From Polytrichum commune (Eukaryota; Streptophyta; Polytrichopsida; Polytrichales; Polytrichaceae): a DNA stretch of 64,000 nucleotides. Shown here piece after piece: positions 6,501-38,367 of the stretch. The position numbers and the translations under genes were made by a program. The notes under the pieces were generated by a model. That model saw nothing but the letters and a program-made list of their open reading frames with translations, was not told the origin of the DNA and searched no databases. The stretch covers positions 46,207,554-46,271,553 of the forward strand of contig OX485803.1 in NCBI GenBank assembly GCA_950295325.1, read 5' to 3'. Numbering within the stretch: the first letter of the stretch is position 1; each line of letters starts with the position of its first letter.

Positions 6501-9500
6501 TGACAGGAAATCTGTCATCGGATATGTGCCAACTCACTCAGCTTGCCTACTTGTAAGCTCCCTCGGACTTCACACAAATAATAAAGTTATCCTTTAATTC
6601 AACGGGACTTTTCGTTGGGAGTTGGTTGTTTTGCATACAACACCTTCCATGTTCTGCAAGTTTTTGATGCATGCTTGACTAAATCGATGGTTTCCATAAA
6701 AACAATCTCTTCTGAATGGGTAAATGTGAGGTGTAAAGTGACTCAGATGCTCTCATTTTCTCTCAACAATTTGGTGTTTGGTTCTGTAGCAATGTACGCA
6801 ACAACAACCTCACAGGACCAATACCGGATGGAATTGGAAATTGCACATCCTTTCAAATTCTGTAAGCCTCTAAATTCTTCTAATTTTAAATGTCTGTTCT
6901 TAATTCCTCTCAAGCTGCTCTAGGCATCCTGATATTGTGAAATATTTGATAAAATCTTGGGTTCTGGGAATCTTGACAGGGACTTGAGCTACAACGATTT
7001 GAGTGGGGAGATCCCATACAACATTGGTTATCTTCAAGTGAGCACATTGTAAGTAACTTGAGTGTCTTCTCAATATCTTATATCAGGACATTAACTTAAG
7101 GAAGTTAGTATGTCTTCAACACTAAAGTGTTGGTTTGTTATTGAGGTCGTTGTATAGAATAACAGACCCAGCTATTTTATAAATTGGTGGACTGAGTTTG
7201 GATGATTTCACAATTGTTTTGGTGCTGCTGTTCTGAGGATTGCATAACATTCAATGCCAGGTCATTGGAGGGCAACCGGTTCACTGGTCAGATTCCTGAT
7301 GTCATTGGCCTCATGCAAGCATTGGTAATATTGTACGTGACTGAAACTTCACCCCTTGATTGTGAAATTAGATCGATGCTCAAAAAGCCACTAGAAAGTG
7401 GTTTGACATTGAATGATGATATTAACATTTACAAAGGATGGTGTTTGATGCAGAGATTTGAGTGGGAATTACCTTGAAGGCCCAATACCACCAATCCTTG
7501 GAAACCTCACTTCTGTGACCAAGTTGTGAGTATACGTCTATTGATGAGCTTTCTGTGTTCTCTGAGTAGTTATAAAATAACAAACTACACGGATATCAGC
7601 TATTAGTGTGAGTTACAATTTGGAGCTACACGTTGCTATAAATTCTTATCGAGAGTTTCATTTTTTACAAAGTAGGTTTCATCATAGTCCTTGATGTGGG
7701 CCTGTTAAATACTACACTAAATATTCCTATTACTGTGGTCCACAGTAAATTTCTAGAGCCCACGATAATTCCCATAATGAGAATTAATGTGGGCCACATT
7801 TTTCAATCCACGCTAAATTTCTAGTAGAAAATTAGTGTGGGCCACAGAAATTGGTATTCTAGAAAGTTAACATGGCTGATTATTTGTGTTTGTGCTATTT
7901 TTGATGTAAGGTGACTATTTTTTTTTATGTAAGGTGTTGATTGGAAGTCTTCATGAACACTTAGGGGAAGACTCGGGTTTCAGACCCATGGTGATTCCAT
8001 CTTGACTAGAAAATTAGTGTGGCCCATGCTAATTATTTCCACACTAATTTTCCACCCACACATTTAGTGTAGTTATCTATGTTATTTGAGTAAATGGTGA
8101 TACTCTCAGTGAAATGCTATAGCAACACGTGACTCCAAATGGTAAATTACCCTAATAAGAGACATCCGTGTAGTTTTGGAACTGTTTGTCAGTTTTATAA
8201 TTACAAGCTTACAATGTCGACTGAAAGAAGTGAGATGGAGGTTTGTTTCTCCAAAGAACTTCTATCATGTATTTACTTGTTTTGGATCTGTGGCTGAATG
8301 ATCATGGCATATTGGTATGGGATTGTGATGCAGATACTTGTTTAGCAACCGCTTGACCGGACAGATACCTCCAGAGCTTGGCAGCATGACCCTCTTAAAT
8401 TACTTGTAAGAGGCGACCCTGGACAATATTTAGCTCATTATTTCCACTTTGCACAATTTACTCATCTAGCTTGACACGCTGAGGTGAATCTATTGCCTCC
8501 ATTAACCTCTCGGAGGACAAATATTCACAAATATTCTACGGATATTCTCTGAATGAATTTATTGGACCCTATTTACTTCATTTGGTTTTATGATTTGTTG
8601 GTCCAAAGAGTTTATGGGACCTCATATTTTGTCCCACGCGTTTTCCCAACACCTCCTGAGTAAGCCTCTGAAATTAACCTGGTGTCTCCCGGGATGTTGT
8701 TGTGGTTTTAACAGAGAACTGAACAACAACAATCTAACTGGCGAAATACCTCCTGAGCTTGGCTACCTCGCTGACCTCTTTGAATTGTGAGCACATTCAT
8801 GCAGTTAGTCCACATTTTTAATCATATGTGATGATGTAAACCCAACTCAGTAGAAGACTGCCCTAAGATTTTCCAGAATCAATGTGTTTTGTTTTTTTAG
8901 CTTGATGATTTTGTAAGACATGTGTTACTAACCATTAACTTTGGCTTGATTTAAGATATGATACTAAGAAATTCTCAAATTTAATCTTTTGCTTCTACCA
9001 TTAGGTTTCGATAACTACATAGTCTGGAATCTGGGGTACATAGTATTGCACTTGTTTAGCATGTTTTCACTCTGAGGATGGGTTTTGATTTATGACTGCA
9101 AATTTGTTAGGATGCTGAAGCGGATGTGATTTGCGTCACTTCAAGGCCAAACCCAAACCATAGAGATTACAGCAATTTGCAATTCTAATTTCAATTTCAT
9201 GTGAACTTCCTGTTGTCCTCCCCACAATTAATTCAGTTTTCTAAAGCGCATTGTTGTGGGTTATGTTGAATCACAGGAAGTTGTCTGAGAACCAACTGGT
9301 GGGACCCATACCTGAAAACATCAGCTCTCTTGCAGCCTTGAACCTCCTGTAAGGCCGCCTTCCTGGTCATTTAGTATACATCCTTTATTCCACCTGTAGT
9401 CAATCATACTTTTATACGATTCAAAGCATATGATGAGATTGCAAACAAGTGAGTTTGTTCACTTGATGTCTCTGCGGAATTGTATGTAGGGATGTGCATG

Positions 9501-30113: not shown

Positions 30114-31634
30114 AACACGTAGTATTTTCTTTCAAATTTGAGTCCATTTTAATCCTAATTGAACCTATCCACATATAATTACCTTGATGCCAAAATGCTT
30201 CCAAGATGTCCAAACGCATGCTCAAAAAATCCTTATGTCACCATGTTTTTTATAGGTTTAAAATAGAACTTACCACAATCTGCTTTTAATTCTGGTCAAA
30301 AGGTAAAACCTTACAAGAACAACTCCCTAGTTTATATATACCACTCTTGGGATTTATAAACAAAGTTTGTGGACCTAAAAAAAAGTGCAAAAAACAAATT
30401 ATCATTATGGCCATATGGTCCTTTAGGGGTTAAGCTTGCGGTTAGTATAAGTTAAATGAGCAAATCTGCATCGAGGTCGTAGTCACTTTTCTCATAAACT
30501 TTGAAGCTTATGAATATTGTATGAGGAGAAGTGGGCCTAAAACGGAGATGTTCTTCACTAGCCCACGTCAACTAGGATATTGAACTCACTTGAATAGGTA
30601 TTAGATGACAAGCAAATCCATATCAACTTGGTCGGAACTATTTTTCTCATACTTTTTGGCGCTCATATGGCATCCTATTCTTATTTTATTTATTTTTATC
30701 AAAATGGAGAGTCTTTCTTCTTTTAAAATTATCATATAAGCTCCCCTCTCGAGGGAAGCTAAGACATGAGCGGTGAGCGGTAACTTATGAGCGGGGTGTA
30801 ATAACTTAAGAGCAATTAGGCGCTACTTATGAGCAATAAGGAAAGTGCTAGCCACATTGACACGGAGATAGGGGTAACAATCATATTCTCAACCCATGTG
30901 TGGGTAGTTCATGAAATGCACAATGTGTGGAATGGCACCTATTACCACGGAATGTTGAAAACCGTAACAACCAAATGTTGTATGTTATTATAAAACACTA
31001 TAACAACCAAATATTATATTTTATATTGCAAACATAATTGATTTCAGCCATAATAAGTTGAGATCATGTGTTATCATGTAATGACATTTATCGACATTAA
31101 TATGAAAAATGGCTAACATGACTATTCAAATAGGCAATGACAAGCCATCCTAAACCCACCTTGAACCAACCTGAGATAGAATGGAGCCCGTTACCTACCT
31201 TTACATGAAGGTAGTGTAGGCTGCTTATGAGGAGAACAGTTCAAGGTAATAGAGTGTTGGCAATTGGGAGGCGTTGGTTTCAGCACCCTCTACCTTATAA
31301 GGGAACTTAGTGGGTGGCATCCATAGTGATTATGAGTTTCTCTTAGTATAGGTCCACCGAGAGTGATCATATGAAGACCAATTTGATTCACAAGCTTCAC
31401 TATGTAAATAGTTTTGAGAAACTAAAACTTCACAAATTTCGTGACCTCTTGTCCCTATAGCAATACACTTCTTGCAAAAGAGACACAATGAGAATACATG
31501 ATATCCTTTGATATTGGACATATTACAATTCTTATACAAGGTTTGTTGCCACCCTCTCTCTTTCGTCTCAACTACTTCATTTTTTTATTTTAAAAAAATC
31601 CAATAGATATTTTGTGTTTATGTAGCATGAGATA
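28796..31634. other. A+T-rich repeat-derived stretch, no gene recognised
   Basis: A TA dinucleotide run occupies about 30066-30111. A partial family C phrase (GAGGAGAAGTGGGCCT) lies near 30520-30540. The minus-strand frame at 29109-29396 has no motif I recognise. Nothing else in the stretch can be supported. Confidence 0.4.
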
Positions 31635-32446
31635 CAATCAAGACTCTATAAGTGTTACCTCTATAAGTGTTATAATTTTATATATGTTAAGAAAATTTTA
31701 CTCCCCTACGAAAACACAATTGGTAAGATTAGTGAGTGTTATGTGTTAAGTGTTATAAAATGCTCTACTCCTTCCTTTGTTAATTGCACCTTTATAAGTG
31801 TTAATTTTGAGAAAATCAAGGTAATAATATATGAGAGCATACATTTTAAACATGTAATCACATTTATCCCATATTCTTTGCAAAAAAAATTCAAAATTGT
31901 TGGTGGCACACAGGTGCTCTTTCGATCTCTATTGAGAGGGAGATAGAGGAAGTTGGGCACAGAACATCAAGAAATTGATGTTGATGAGGTTATGGTTGAT
32001 GTGGTAGAAGAAGTTGTAGGATTTAGTGTTGATGAGCGTTCTCTAGAGACTTTGAAGAAATACTTTGAACAAAGACCAAATGATGCCCTATCACACATCA
32101 GGAGCATTCAAGGACTCCAGAAGGAAGTTTCATCTCATCATTTGGAAGCTTCTCATCATACTATTATAGACTCTTTCTTTCAGTTAGTTTAGTTGGAAGA
32201 ATATCGTCAAGTTACTACTATATAGATTATTTCTTTCAATTAGTTTAGTTGAATTATGTATTATCATTTGTACTTTCATTTTTTATTTTTATAGAACGTT
32301 ATGTTCTTCATTTTTGGAATTTTTAGATGTTATTTCTATAAAATGTTATTAATCATTGGTATGAATTCTAAAAACGTTACTTGTTATAATTCTATATATG
32401 TTATTTTTTTGCTACTCCCGACTTGTCACATTTAGAGTCTTGACTG
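31635..32446 (+). mobile_element. pogo/Tigger-like DNA transposon remnant
   Basis: The inverted ends are CAATCAAGACTCTATAAGTG at the left and the complement of CAGTCAAGACTCTAAATGTG at the right. The repeated CTCTATAAGTGTTA near the left end recalls the CCTCTATAAAT ends of plant Emigrant/pogo elements (family knowledge). Inside, an open frame at 31953-32192 (79 codons) is acidic at the start and contains S-V-D-E-R-S-L-E-T-L-K-K-Y-F and S-I-Q-G-L-Q-K-E-V. It could be the C-terminal tail of a transposase. The expected TA duplication is present only on the left. The element is too short to be autonomous. Confidence 0.5.
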
Positions 32447-32469
32447 GAGTTGCTACAATAGAAAAAGGT

Positions 32470-33033
32470 GCCCATAAATACACAAACAAAACACCATTGG
32501 AGGCAAGAACATAGAATGGTGTGAAGTTGGCCAGATACAATGCAACAAAGAAGGCTATAAATGACATAAGGAAAGGCGAACTTGAGAAACTAATCGCTAT
32601 GGCAAACTTGACAATTGGAGATGAGTTTTTATCCGAGTACATCGGACCAAAAAGGCCAATTTCCTCTTACTTTTGAAAAAAAGAGGGGGGTGAATATCAA
32701 TGAAAGCTTATAGAGAGACCTTAGGGCATTCCCCTTTATGTGGGATTTCTTGTTTTCTCTTGCATGTCTTCCACCTTCTTTCAAATTTATTTATTTTTAT
32801 TTTGTAATTGTTTTTCCCCACTTGACCCTTGTCTATTGTGTAGATTAACAAACACTTTGGCATATCCACAAAAGCCCCAAATGACCTTGGAGAAGTTCAA
32901 AATGCTTGTCACCACGCCGGTGGAGGGGAAATATAAAGGTCGTCAGTTGCATCGGTGGAACTCTAGTCCTATGTCACATGAATCCCTTCGTTTCCTGCTT
33001 GGTGAACTCAAAAAGTGTGACATTGAGACATGA
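32470..33033 (+). pseudogene. Coding-like remnants of an unrecognised protein
   Basis: One frame reads A-R-Y-N-A-T-K-K-A-I-N-D-I-R-K-G-E-L-E-K and on to I-G-P-K-R-P-I-S-S (about 32490-32675), with one internal stop upstream. A second piece (about 32845-33033) reads L-E-K-F-K-M-L-V-T-T-P-V-E-G-K-Y-K-G and S-P-M-S-H-E-S-L-R-F-L-L-G-E-L. Both have protein-like composition but no family I can name. They lie between the pogo-like element and the methyltransferase-like pseudogene. They might be its 5' part, but this is inference. Confidence 0.35.
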
Positions 33034-35036
33034 GTTGTTAAAAGCTTCATTTTGGGCTGAAGTGATGCTATTTGATTAGTCTTGTCTCAAATTGCCTTTC
33101 ATCACACTTGTTGGTTACAATATTCTAAATACTTTGTATTCTATCTTGTAGTTGTAGAAGGACATGGTTAATGAGTTTGAACATATCAAGGGTGACATGG
33201 GAAGGTGAATTGGCGTGATTGTGTCCATAAATCTGGTGATTACGTTGAGAAATAGAAGGTTAGTTTGTGGACTGTGGTACTTATTTTTTTTCTTTTTCTA
33301 AACAAAACTAGGATTCTAGTGAGAATAGAACTTTCTATGAACTAGAATTCCTAATTGAGCATGTGAGAATAGGCCATGGTCTCGAGATATCACAAATGAA
33401 GGATTGTAAAGGCCATAGTCAAATAGCAATAGGCAAGTACTTTCATATTTACAAGGGTAGGAGAAAAGAACATCTTCAAGCATATATGAGTGTTTCATGC
33501 ATGCTAAGGCAATTGTCTGTGTTGAAGTAATTGATTTACCTCTAGGAAGAATGTACTGGAGCATCATCAATTCCATTTGAAATTATGGGTCAAGTCAATT
33601 GTTAAAGTCATGGTTGAGCAATAAGGATTACTATGATATATTTATAGTTTTTGTATGATAATTGATCAACAAGTTGTCACATGTACTGACCATTGTCTAT
33701 GATTAAGGAAGGTTTGAATGATTGATCATTCTTTGAGTAATTTGGAGAGGGATCGGCCATTGTCTGTGCACTCATCATGTCTGATTAAAGTATATTAAGG
33801 CGATAGACTCCATCGGAAGGATTGTAAAGCATGTTATCATCTTGATTAAGCCATAGTGTGGGATTACAACCCTATTACTTGAGGACTCCCATAGGAATTC
33901 AGGTAAGGATGATAATATGCTGACATTGCCATAGCAAAAGGCTAAGATCACCTAATGTCATTGCACCACTCAAGTTAGGCCTCGTAAATGTTCACAATGA
34001 TCCCCAATAACGCAATCTCAATGTACATGTTGATGAGAATATGAATGGAATAATTGGACGGGCCTTTACTTGTTGAAATCGCAACCTAGTAATAGGTTAT
34101 GTTTGAAGAGAATGAGGCTTTTGGCCTTCATATAGAAGAACATGGCGAGACCATAGCCATGAATTTTCCAAGATAGGCAGAAGTGGTTTGCTGACCCTTG
34201 GCAAGAAAGAGCCGAAAGGACAAACCTACGAAGATGGAGAGTCTCAATAGCCAAACAATGAGGAGGCCAGCAGAGTTCAGGTAAAAGCCCATGGTCTAAC
34301 TATATCACTAGAATCTAAATTAACCATGAGGGATTGAGAATTCCAAAAAGATAATTATATTGCCATTTCAAGTCCTATTCAATCGAATTAATCAATACAA
34401 GACTATCGACTAGACCAAAGCGCCCTTGGCTTTGGTAAAGAGACACAAATGGGATATTTTATGCAAGATAATTGATGATGACTATGCGTACGCACTTAAT
34501 CCCATTAAAATGAACTCACTACCAAACTTTTGCGTGGATAATTAGAGTGAGATGAGAGACCGCCACAATTGTATGTATTGCTATGGAGAGATATTCAAAG
34601 TGTCCCCCCTTTTGTTACGATCTTATTGTTGTTCTAAACCGCAAATAAAATGAAATAACCTTGTATTTGCTTTAATAAAACTTATATGTGACACCTAGAT
34701 GTTGCCAAAATCACCTTTTGAGTCTTCCTTGAGTGTTTCCTTGGGTTTGTTTGTAACCAAAAACTAAACTACATTGACTAAAGCATGCCATATAATGTTT
34801 AGAGGGAAAAACCATTTCACCAAATCAATCGTTCTCTACGACTTTCCTGATGGTAAAATCGTGGTCAATGTGTCCTCTACATGTTAGTGTTTTAACATGC
34901 ATGTCAGTATTTCATTGCTTCCTCTTCACATGTTCATTTTTTGTGTTTTCATTCTGATTCTTAGTTTTATATTGCGACCTCCTTCCAACCACCAATCTTG
35001 CATTCTCATTTGGTTTGTAAGGTACCTCGATAGGGA
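33034..35036 (+). other. Decayed coding-like fragments, no intact gene
   Basis: A 68-codon open stretch at about 33321-33530 contains F-L-I-E-H-V-R-I-G-H-G-L-E-I. Around 34150-34260 another frame contains R-Q-K-W-F-A-D-P-W-Q-E-R-A-E-R-T-N-L-R-R-W. Neither has a start, stop or splice context I can defend. They may be parts of the same decayed transposon or gene as 35528-37017. Confidence 0.3.
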
Positions 35037-35234
35037 ACTACATTAAATATGGTATTCAGTGTCACTTACTATTTGGAATTACACAATGCTATATTAACTT
35101 ACTATACATCTCATATTTTACCAGCAAATGTTAAATTAGTTGTTTGGACATTATAGAACATTAACAACTTCACTTGGTAAAGAATTTAGTGTGAATGTGT
35201 GAATCCAAATAGTTAATAACATATTTAGTGTAGT
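35037..35234. mobile_element. Family A MITE, copy 2
   Basis: It starts ACTACATTAAATATGG and ends ATATTTAGTGTAGT, with TCACTTACTATTTGGAATTA and GGACATTATAGAACATTAAC shared with the copy at 25264-25488. The length is 198 bp. A run of ten G follows at about 35279-35290. Confidence 0.7.
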
Positions 35235-35527
35235 GGCATTGAAAGCTCTCACATTTGATGCCCTTCCTTCATATGGGGAGGGGGGGGGGGTGTAATCTTT
35301 GTATATTCACTAATGCCCAAATGAGTATTTGGGATCTTCCCACATTGAAATATTAGTCTTGGTTCATAGATTGAAAGGACTCAAGTGTCACTTTTCCGAA
35401 CTAGGGGCCAAAATTCAAGAACAACCAACTCAAGGTGATGTAAATTGCAATAACACCACTTCCACATATAGTGGTTGCTCTAGATACAAGTTTCCAATCT
35501 CACTCAATCTCAACATGTGGCACAAAA

Positions 35528-37017
35528 CTTGATTGCGATGAATGAAGGTGCATTGTCAACAAAAGATGCATTCCCAAATGTCATAATTGTGGGGAAGAAC
35601 ATTTTTACTGCGACGGAGCTAATGGGCATCCAATATTGATGGAGACAATTGAGTTTGAGAAAGAAGTAAGAATTTTCACTCCGCAATTCTATTTACCTTC
35701 CCATAGTGTGTGTTTTTCTCTTCCCTATTTCATTTTCATGATATGTGGCTTTGTTTTTATCATTATCATAGATAAGCCCGAGGGGCTTCCGGTTCCTAGC
35801 ATTTCCTCTTCACCCAATGCCTTTCCTCTATGGAAAGTATACAATGAAGACCACGTCGAAGCACTTTTTGAATTTTGTCATGCTTATCTTAAGGATGATT
35901 CTTGTATTCTTGTGTTCATGCCAAGAGTTAAATGAGTTAGGTACGATGTCCGCACTTGTGTGGATACATATGATTTTGGAATTGCGAAGAATTGGTGAGG
36001 GGATCAATGAACTGCCATTGTGCTTGAGTGTTGATAACATAAAGATTGTAAGACATTACTCATACCATTTGCAATTGTGTTAGGTTTTTTTTTTTTATCT
36101 TGAACCTTATCACATCTTGTGTTGTTACCTTTTATTGTTGTATACTTGACATTTTCGCATTTTGATGATGGTTCACAAGCGCAACTCCAAGATGTTGTTT
36201 TATTTATTTTTCATTTATTTAAATGCTAAAGTGGATGTCGAGAATTTAGACATATTCTTGACTTTGATGATTTTTTATTTTTTATTTTTTAATCATAGTT
36301 CAAGAATGGTTTTGTACATTGTAGAGGAGGACATGTGAAAGACCCTATGTCCACGCAAATTTTGATAGAGGCCTTTACTAAGCCCAAAGATGTTGTACTA
36401 GATACCTATGCATCCACATGTGATAAACATTTTCATAGTCATTCATGCAAAAATTTGACCAAGGAAGGTTTTTGTTTGGATTACATGCCGACTTTATCCA
36501 TATATGAATGTCAGGAGCTTCCATTCATGCTTGCAAATGTAGTGGATGCCACATCATGGCATTTGAGGGTGATTTTATTATTTCTGATGGGATCATGGCT
36601 CCTCTTTGCAACGACACAACACCAAACACCTCTACAAATGCAACTCATATTATCACCATTGATGACGATGACAATCATGTTAGGAAGGTTGCAAAAGGCT
36701 GTTGCATTAGGAAGTAAGTTTGCAATTAACTATTTTTTTCCAGATTTTTCTTAATCCTTGTTGGTGTTCTTTGCCATTTGTAGCAATTGATTAATTAAAA
36801 TTATGTTTGTAGATTCATGGCAACGGCTAGGTCATCTCTTAGTGACATGGTTCTCCCTCCACATGTAGAGACTATGGCACAAGTTATGTCAAAAACACCG
36901 AACCCTAGCTGGAAATCTAGACGTGCACTTCACAACCCGTATGTAGACGACATGGCAAAGGAAGGGAATGAGAACGATATCATGGATGTTTGTAGGCCCA
37001 ATAGCAATCAATCCTAG
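35528..37017 (+). pseudogene. Broken gene: cysteine-rich finger plus N6/N4 DNA-methyltransferase-like domain
   Basis: Pieces in order: a cysteine-rich finger at 35534-35640 (K-R-C-I-P-K-C-H-N-C-G-E-E-H-F-Y-C) with an in-frame TGA at 35543-35545; 35772-35935, D-K-P-E-G-L-P-V-P, then W-K-V-Y-N-E-D-H-V-E-A-L-F-E-F-C and C-I-L-V-F-M-P; a TGA, then R-Y-D-V-R-T-C and N-W, another stop and a frame change, then G-I-N-E-L-P-L-C; about 36303-36419, D-P-M-S-T-Q-I-L-I-E-A-F-T-K-P and D-V-V-L-D-T-Y-A-S-T; an intron-like gap 36420-36514; 36515-36713, A-S-I-H-A-C and H-I-M-A-F-E-G-D, ending at GTAAGT; last exon 36813-37017. The V-L-D-x-Y/F-x-S-T-G region after an F-T-K-P block is the SAM-binding motif order of beta-class DNA methylases (PF01555-like). 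The expected D-P-P-Y is at best D-K-P-E. Stops and shifts make it non-functional. Its function in the living ancestor is unknown, and it may be transposon-encoded. Confidence 0.6.
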
Positions 37018-38367
37018 TTTTGGGTTGGAGTGGTTTGTTTTGAATTAAAATTCACTTTAAGTAACCCGCTATCAATGGGCATGGTTTTGTGTGTGCAATT
37101 CTCCTACTTTTGTGTGTGCTATCCACATTGTTTTGTATGTGTTATGCACATGGTTTTACATGTGCAACTCGCTTGGTTTTGTACTTGGTAAGAAATCATT
37201 CGGCACCTATACCCACTACATTTTGCCATTAGTTCATGTCCCATGGGGGGTAGATTCTTCATACAAATGTACGAACTAACATGAGTGTAAGAAGGGGTAT
37301 TATTTGAGGCATTAACGTACATAGTATACACTAAAGAGAGGTATTGTTTTTCTCTAGTGTGTGCATTTAGAAAGGCTATGAAGAATTTTGAAGTACGTGT
37401 AAATTTACAAAAGGGCCCCCCAAGGTTAGAGAAAAAATTGACAATATATGTGTTATTTTTTCATCCAATTCATGTTTACATCCACTGTTATCATATGATG
37501 ATAGTCCTTAATTTTTATCTTGTACATTCTTGTTAGGATTTGCATTTCGGTTCTAGGTTTAAGAACTAGAGGTTGTTGGAGCGCTCATGGGCTACGTTGA
37601 GATTTGCTCTTAGGATTGTCATTTGTGGATAAGTTATTATGCTCTTGTCTTTATTTGTTTAATGTAACTATAACTTGAGTTACATGTCATGGATGAAGAA
37701 ATGTTCAATGACTTTCTCATTGGAAAGTGAGAGTGGATTTTATCAATAATAAAGGCCCATTTAGTTCATAGTTTTTATATTGTATATGTAGTGGAGGCAT
37801 TTATCGCATTAAATTGAAAATCTCAATATAAATCCGTGGTTCCATTTTCTAGTGTGATGCTAGTACGTATAATTTGTTTTTCCTCTCTAAACATCTCATA
37901 TATAGGGGGGCTCAATTTCACAGTGACCCACACACGTCATTCAAGTTCCCAATGAAGAGTCCACCCCCAGGCTTATGTCATGTTTCCATGGATACATGAT
38001 ACATAATGTTGCATTAGCACCATTAAATTTTCCTTCATTGCCCATGTGTTAGTACTCACTATCACTGCTCATATGACATCATTCCCCGGCCCCTACCCCC
38101 TACCCCCAAAAGTGTTTGAGGATTCAACCTAGAAAACTTCACAAATTTGAACACGTAGACTAATCTCTTTTGAACATGTACTGTTTTTTCGGTGTCCGTT
38201 CTTGTTTTCACACCCAACCACACACCACTCAAATACACGTCTTAGATTAAGACAAGTGACCAACTTCGGGTTTATCTACCTTATTCACTATGAGAAGTCA
38301 ACACCGCTCCACATTCAAATAGGTAACATAATTGAGAGTGCATGTGTAATGAGAGAGAGAGAGAGAG
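37018..38367. other. No gene; partial family C copy and GA microsatellite
   Basis: TTTTGTGTGTGC-like words repeat at 37080-37190. A family C fragment, inverted (CACACCCAACCACACACCACTC), occupies about 38165-38340. A GA run lies at 38351-38367. No coding frame can be supported. Confidence 0.4.

Follow-up and report, generated by a model that had tools for sequence, protein, structure and literature searches.

The window analysed here is a 64,000-nucleotide stretch of the 408-Mb, 64-contig genome assembly of Polytrichum commune (C1:46207554-46271553). It contains what is very probably a dead transposon with terminal inverted repeats and no transposase of its own, whose relatives carry a putative transposase and a methyltransferase-type gene in divergent orientation. 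The gene inside it, which judging by its exon remnants probably extends from about 32.9 to 37.0 kb, can be read with high confidence as the broken remains of a DNA-methyltransferase-like gene of bacterial type, lodged within a DNA transposon. The features of this copy are collected in Table 1.

Table 1. Features of the decayed element, in window positions. All E-values between window exons and family exons come from searches of small local databases.
Feature	Position	Strand	Evidence
Complete span of the decayed element (7,337 bp), a non-autonomous transposon	30751..38087	+	Both terminal inverted repeats located
Left flank CTCCCCTCTC	30741..30750	.	Right flank GGCCCCTACC at 38088-38097 agrees at 6/10 positions
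5' terminal inverted repeat GAGGGAAGCTAAGACATGAGCGGTGAGC	30751..30778	+	Pattern: one match in the window, without mismatches; 100 shuffles give an expectation of 0
Middle exon m1, weak remnant	32878..33150	+	tblastn, 4.75-kb target: E = 0.002 with the A-family exon and 0.009 with that of D, at one place and in one frame
Exon m2, weak remnant, two frames	35259..35371	+	tblastn, 4.75-kb target: F_m2 E = 0.010 (two pieces), D_m2 E = 0.036
Cysteine-rich stretch, not conserved	35546..35635	+	Comparison with relatives
Motif IV-equivalent exon, DPPY replaced by DKPEGLPVP	35753..36001	+	tblastn: E-family E = 2.6e-16, F-family 2.3e-12; L059+L061 9e-10
Motif X exon, which also holds the first half of SAM motif I, RGGHVKDPMSTQILIEAFTKPKDVVLDTYAST	36323..36419	+	Genome matches, relatives; L059+L061 E = 7e-11
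Intron within motif I, junction codon damaged	36420..36514	+	Same position as in relative E1
Next exon, carrying the second half of the SAM-binding region; starts ASIHACKCSGCHIMAFEGD	36515..36714	+	62% to L014, 44% to L015; L059+L061 E = 6.5e-14
C-terminal exon remnant	36802..37014	+	62% to L013 over the last 56 positions, E = 5e-17; L059+L061 E = 4e-6
3' terminal inverted repeat, ends ...CATTCCCC	38067..38087	+	L014-derived pattern: 1 match, 2/21 mismatches; 0 expected in 100 shuffles

The 5' end of the element was first noticed as a short match to the end shared by two of the families described below, A and D (E = 0.006). At the other end, the alignment of relative L014 with the window stops exactly at base 38087, and ends homologous to those of the window are found in L014, L015 and L018. 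Both end patterns in Table 1 were written after the places had been seen. An exact target-site duplication was sought in the flanks of the window element and was not found; their partial agreement could at most be the worn remains of a target-site duplication. In the window, the transposase search gave no match at E ≤ 0.1, and the left half of the element gave only chance-level matches (E of 1.4 or worse). Since remnants of the methyltransferase-like gene are kept while a transposase is undetectable, we regard the window element as a dead, non-autonomous copy.

The first-pass annotation had described a decayed gene in which a cysteine-rich finger was coupled to a DNA methylase. Both translated blocks on which the methylase assignment depended are present, F-T-K-P..D-V-V-L-D-T-Y-A-S-T at 36374-36418 and A-C-x-x-S-G-x-H-I-M-A-F-E-G-D at 36529-36573. 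The stops and the change of frame that it had reported were also recovered, with a stop at 35933-35935 and a frame change near 35990-36000 in the motif-IV exon, so the copy is dead here. The same is true of the damaged splice border, the intron being placed as in E1. The motif-IV exon itself had been missed; its best match is to the motif-IV exon of E1, and an A-family exon matches over 35753-35932 with E = 1.2e-5 (tblastn). The two exon remnants further upstream gave E-values in the range 0.002-0.04 against the 4.75-kb target, and the remnant at 32878-33150 scored E = 0.053 in a wider search.

When the exon containing VVLDTYAST was searched against the genome, it returned 13 matches, itself and 12 others. 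Five of the 12 overlap matches found independently with the PF01555 model, among which the window is absent. We therefore consider that the methylase blocks of the window are not due to chance. Joined with X at the breaks, the window exons reached E = 0.005 and 17.2 bits against PF01555, under the curated cut-off of 26.7, and no PF01555 match was obtained with the unjoined pieces.

The coupling of a metal finger to the methylase was not borne out: conserved cysteine pairs are absent from the relatives compared. Its site is anchored on the left by a 17-base identity and on the right by the sequence G-A-N-G-H-P-I-L-M-E-T-I-E-F-E-K-E (E = 0.004); the stretch between these anchors was aligned by eye, and the cysteines are readable in the window frame. 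None of the four relatives read there (L015, L018, L019 and L059+L061) has a cysteine, and the sole other genome match to the finger at E ≤ 10 covers 28 residues with E = 0.107. The cysteine stretch is read here as probable drift in a dead copy.

Relatives of the element in the genome

A PF01555 profile search of the genome gave 118 matches at E ≤ 10. Five of them score above the curated cut-off: two are on large contigs, and three are on C10 and C12, both small. On these small contigs (47 kb and 61 kb, respectively; L005-L007) the N6/N4 methylase matches are strong, the best at 9.6e-26, and L005 reads like a bacterial gene; both contigs are probably bacterial contamination in the assembly.

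The exons of the relatives match each other and the window in the same order and fall into six sequence families. We read families A (a 577-aa frame; L008-L010), B (L025, L026), D (L030-L033), E (L034-L037) and F (L038), together with C/G, the window's own kind (L013-L019; L059+L061). Copies within a family are 93-98.5% identical in DNA, which indicates recent amplification. Better-preserved relatives elsewhere in the same genome, as the first-pass annotation had anticipated, were found by the genome search, among them stop-free copies of family D and L059+L061. The latter is the closest near-complete relative of the window, and it carries a frame change of its own. Extra exons at the N-terminal side of the gene bear a domain with the pattern V-R-P...[D/E]-G-N-H-R. 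A reading of this domain by eye as ParB/Srx-like was set aside, there being no ParB match in NCBIfam, PHROGs, Pfam or PDB.

Element borders at both ends were delimited in A, D and the window. Comparison of copies gave sharp borders for three A elements, at C1, C7 and C4, of 15,167, 14,939 and 15,375 bp, with inverted ends GAGGGAAGCTAT... and ...ATAGCACTCCCC. Two D elements measure about 11.7 and 11.8 kb and have ends closely similar to those of A. All five of these delimited elements (three A and two D) are flanked by exact 10-bp target-site duplications. The methyltransferase-like gene lies on the plus strand of A and D, and the minus strand carries large frames (742 and 455 aa in D). We call this second gene a putative DDE-type transposase, perhaps Mutator-like, because it occurs within repeated elements flanked by target-site duplications and because of motifs read by eye. 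The 742-aa frame of D had no Pfam match, and a PDB search with the putative transposase gave no match.

Several of these elements hold further sequences. In A-family elements, a protein-kinase-like gene (L024:82-1170, C7:18936581-18937669; PF00069 E = 3.3e-5, under the cut-off) stands beside the methyltransferase-like gene. A genome search with this kinase returned 112 rows, more than 80 of which are dispersed kinase matches of roughly 25-33% identity, many in frames of about 708 aa (for example C2:35844230-35845108); these appear to form a further kinase gene family that has been amplified and is possibly mobile. Between the two genes of an A-family element lie direct repeats of about 100 bp with TTGTGCGCTGGCGCACAA palindromes (L028, about 8244-8926), and D copies have shorter tandem repeats at a similar place. 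An E-family element contains, at L034:3822-8474, an open LTR-retrotransposon frame of 1551 aa with a C-terminal stretch that by eye is chromodomain-like. The D element at C1:48087994-48099821 (L030/L031) has retroelement-like frames on both sides, by eye RNase-H-like on one, and seems to have inserted into a retroelement.

A 22-base version of the window 5' end occurs in 221 exact copies in the genome (0 for a reversed-pattern control), and the exact end variant of the window stands at 11 of 100 listed places among them. Two loci with the window variant were followed. At L059+L061, a putative transposase (75-85% to D) is accompanied by the gene through its C-terminal exon. L060 has transposase fragments only, with no methyltransferase match in its 8 kb.

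The two genes are strongly linked. Of 58 methyltransferase loci, at least 34 have one of the 94 putative transposase loci at a distance of no more than 15 kb, and 33 of these 34 pairs are divergent. Loci were counted once per place: 84 methyltransferase rows became 58 after 26 were dropped as further pieces of kept loci (the kept row C7:13704801 is an N-terminal piece), and 97 transposase rows were reduced to 94. In 1000 trials of random placement, the mean was 0.39 pairs and the maximum 4. The earlier suggestion of a transposon passenger is thus upheld by the terminal repeats and, in the relatives, by target-site duplications and a linked second gene; the search that it had called for, covering copies elsewhere in the genome and flanking terminal repeats, found both.

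The methyltransferase-like domain and selection on the gene

The assignment to beta-class N6/N4 methylases was supported by the relatives. The 577-aa frame of family A reached 32.4 bits against PF01555 (E = 1.1e-7), and the E-family exons, joined by eye, reached 34.2 bits (E = 3.4e-8), both above the cut-off of 26.7. The window copy itself falls below it, as do the closest near-complete relative (23.5 bits) and single exons of D (13.5) and F (17.8). The best solved structure is that of the DpnA adenine methyltransferase, at 3.4e-8 with a three-family profile (A1) and 1.9e-8 with E alone; CcrM matched profile A1 at 0.0014. The significant match lies in motif X and the SAM-binding part. This region, motifs X and I, is conserved, including the terminal E-x-D. 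As had been claimed, the SAM-binding motif comes late in the protein: the order is IV, X, I, with catalytic motif IV ahead of SAM motif I as in beta-class methylases.

The catalytic motif of beta-class enzymes is (D/N/S)PP(Y/F/W), and the aromatic residue of known methylases stacks on the target base. This motif is absent from every family read, its place being taken by D-x-P-[E/D]-G or another sequence. The window has DKPEG; E, G and L019 have DLPEG, B has DIPEG and F has DQPEG. Family A has DIP[D/Y]G, with DIPYG in one copy. In D the first Asp is lost, with QFPDG in eight of nine copies and QFSDG in the ninth, and two decayed copies of the window type read NLPEG (L015) and DLREG (L018). Since DPPY is replaced in every family read, methylation by the protein is unproven, and some members, with D lacking even the first Asp, may be pseudo-enzymes.

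We compared nine D copies over 817 codons and obtained a pS of 0.0955, a pN of 0.0202 and a pN/pS of 0.21, with exon blocks picked by eye inside open frames and insertions relative to copy B1 uncounted. Seven of the nine have no stop (L040 has 2 and L045 has 9), although seven of the copies came from pairs selected for transposase frames that are largely open, a choice biased towards intact copies. By block, the ratio was 0.18, 0.19 and 0.23 in upstream exons and 0.36 and 0.32 in the methyltransferase-domain blocks, where changes are few; synonymous divergence along the gene ranges from 0.03 to 0.21. The transposase core gave 0.40. Among families E, B and F the ratio was 0.21-0.28, with synonymous sites near saturation. 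The values for E1-E2 (1.08) and L025-L026 (0.59) rest on too few changes to be informative. Given the ratio in the nine D copies, and also that between E, B and F, the methyltransferase-like gene is a selected part of the element, and intact copies elsewhere in the genome look selected to work.

Possible role of the protein and affiliation of the element

Full-length relatives thus appear to have two divergent genes, one for the putative DDE-type transposase and one for a multi-exon protein ending in a domain of beta-class amino-methyltransferase type. We infer that this protein would bind SAM and DNA and act for the element itself. Its target would most likely be the GAGCGGTGAGC-type repeats packed into the element ends, where it might methylate a base or occupy the repeats, and its effect might be to tune access of the transposase or to oppose silencing by the host. 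A tentative extension, which we would sooner question than rely on, is that this land plant is home to a recently active transposon superfamily whose members encode a DNA amino-methyltransferase of their own with a novel active-site motif, D-x-P-E-G, write a non-5mC mark on their own ends and in this way escape or steer silencing by the host.

Whether the protein is an active enzyme or a binding factor derived from one is a choice to which we give equal weight on both sides, each being plausible but somewhat short of probable. An active DNA amino-methyltransferase (N6-adenine or N4-cytosine) with the unusual site D-x-P-E-G, marking the DNA of its own element, would fit the match of the SAM region to adenine methylases, the purifying selection on the gene, the recurrence of D-x-P-E-G in E, B, F, G, L019 and the window, and the single A copy with DIPYG. 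It has to contend with the replacement of the base-stacking aromatic residue by E or D, the missing Asp of D, and the different motifs again in decayed L015 and L018. Replacement of the active site together with purifying selection would be expected if the methyltransferase fold had lost catalysis and been retained as an accessory factor that binds DNA or SAM. Inactive methyltransferase partners are known and offer a parallel. A second parallel is VANC, the anti-silencing factor of Arabidopsis VANDAL elements outlined in an excerpt of PMC10398659. A protein that never used SAM, however, would hardly be expected to conserve its SAM-binding region. The capture of gene fragments by transposons is common, according to an excerpt of PMC6431247, and together with the dead state of the window copy this could suggest Pack-type capture, in which a piece of a host or bacterial gene was trapped between transposon ends and has no role. 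We find this very improbable, and for the family as a whole it is strongly disfavoured: all six sequence families have this multi-exon gene, it is under constraint both within D and between E, B and F with most D copies stop-free, and its order with the second gene is fixed, almost always divergent.

For either reading of the protein as a selected part of the element, the affiliation of the element is a separate matter, and on membership of the Mutator (MULE) superfamily proper our judgement is evenly divided. MULE target-site duplications are 9-11 bp long, and the exact 10-bp duplications at five of five delimited elements agree with this. The putative transposase has a weak SWIM match under threshold (14.0 bits against a cut-off of 19.6, E = 0.037), and in hhalign its second Asp and a C-x-x-H align to MULE proteins. 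Against this, none of the 94 putative transposase loci is among the 150 PF10551 matches listed, and PF10551 was not found in the scanned transposase proteins. The hhalign comparison with six MULE proteins gave a probability of only 1 of 100 (P = 0.053) with a query almost without diversity (Neff 1), and global mode gave a probability of 0 (P = 0.86).

Comparison with known systems

The PF01555 beta-class methylases, such as DpnA, CcrM and MboIIA, resemble the plant gene in the motif order IV-X-I and in the significant match over motifs X and I. They have DPPY, whereas the plant gene has D-x-P-[E/D]-G and extra N-terminal exons, is spliced and is borne by a transposon. Relatives outside the plant were sought in several collections. 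A tblastn search of 50,697 phage records found none. Searches with two short peptide patterns each, which distant relatives may escape, gave 71 stretches in viral contigs and 93 in prokaryote genome contigs, none of which was confirmed.

MULEs, including VANDAL elements, have 10-bp target-site duplications, a second gene beside the transposase and a SWIM-like finger. The moss elements are alike in the duplications, in the second gene and in a weak SWIM-like match; unlike MULEs, their putative transposase is unmatched by PF10551 among the matches listed. We know of no methyltransferase gene in MULEs. KDZ transposons carry TET/JBP genes and so likewise combine a DNA-base-modifying gene with a DNA transposon, although there the enzyme is an oxidase and the transposase belongs to another family.

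Mariner elements of giant viruses carry methyltransferase genes and, in the excerpt of PMC3627910, are likewise DNA transposons with a methyltransferase next to the transposase. They differ, as far as that excerpt describes them, in having a mariner transposase, Methyltransf_26 or C5 cytosine domains and an adjoining endonuclease, whereas the elements described here are in a land-plant genome. The bdelloid rotifer N4CMT and the 4mC methyltransferase of Marchantia, horizontally acquired and acting on the host genome in the account excerpted from PMC8885841, are likewise bacterial-type amino-methyltransferases in eukaryotes; unlike them as excerpted there, the plant gene is on many mobile copies and has an altered catalytic motif. 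As far as titles and abstract openings show, a plant transposon of this kind is undescribed in the open-licence PMC literature.

Transposons with a DNA-modifying type of enzyme of their own are rare. In the plant set, one end sequence is present in 221 exact copies, some members are intact and the gene is clearly under selection; this permits a direct test of 6mA and 4mC on the elements and of the effect of the protein on silencing or transposition. What looks like an N6/N4 methylase of the host in plant genomes of this kind may instead belong to a transposon. DNA transposons with a gene of DNA-modification type are already known in kind; new here are the plant genome, the different class of methylase, the altered active site and a putative transposase without a PF10551 match among the matches listed.
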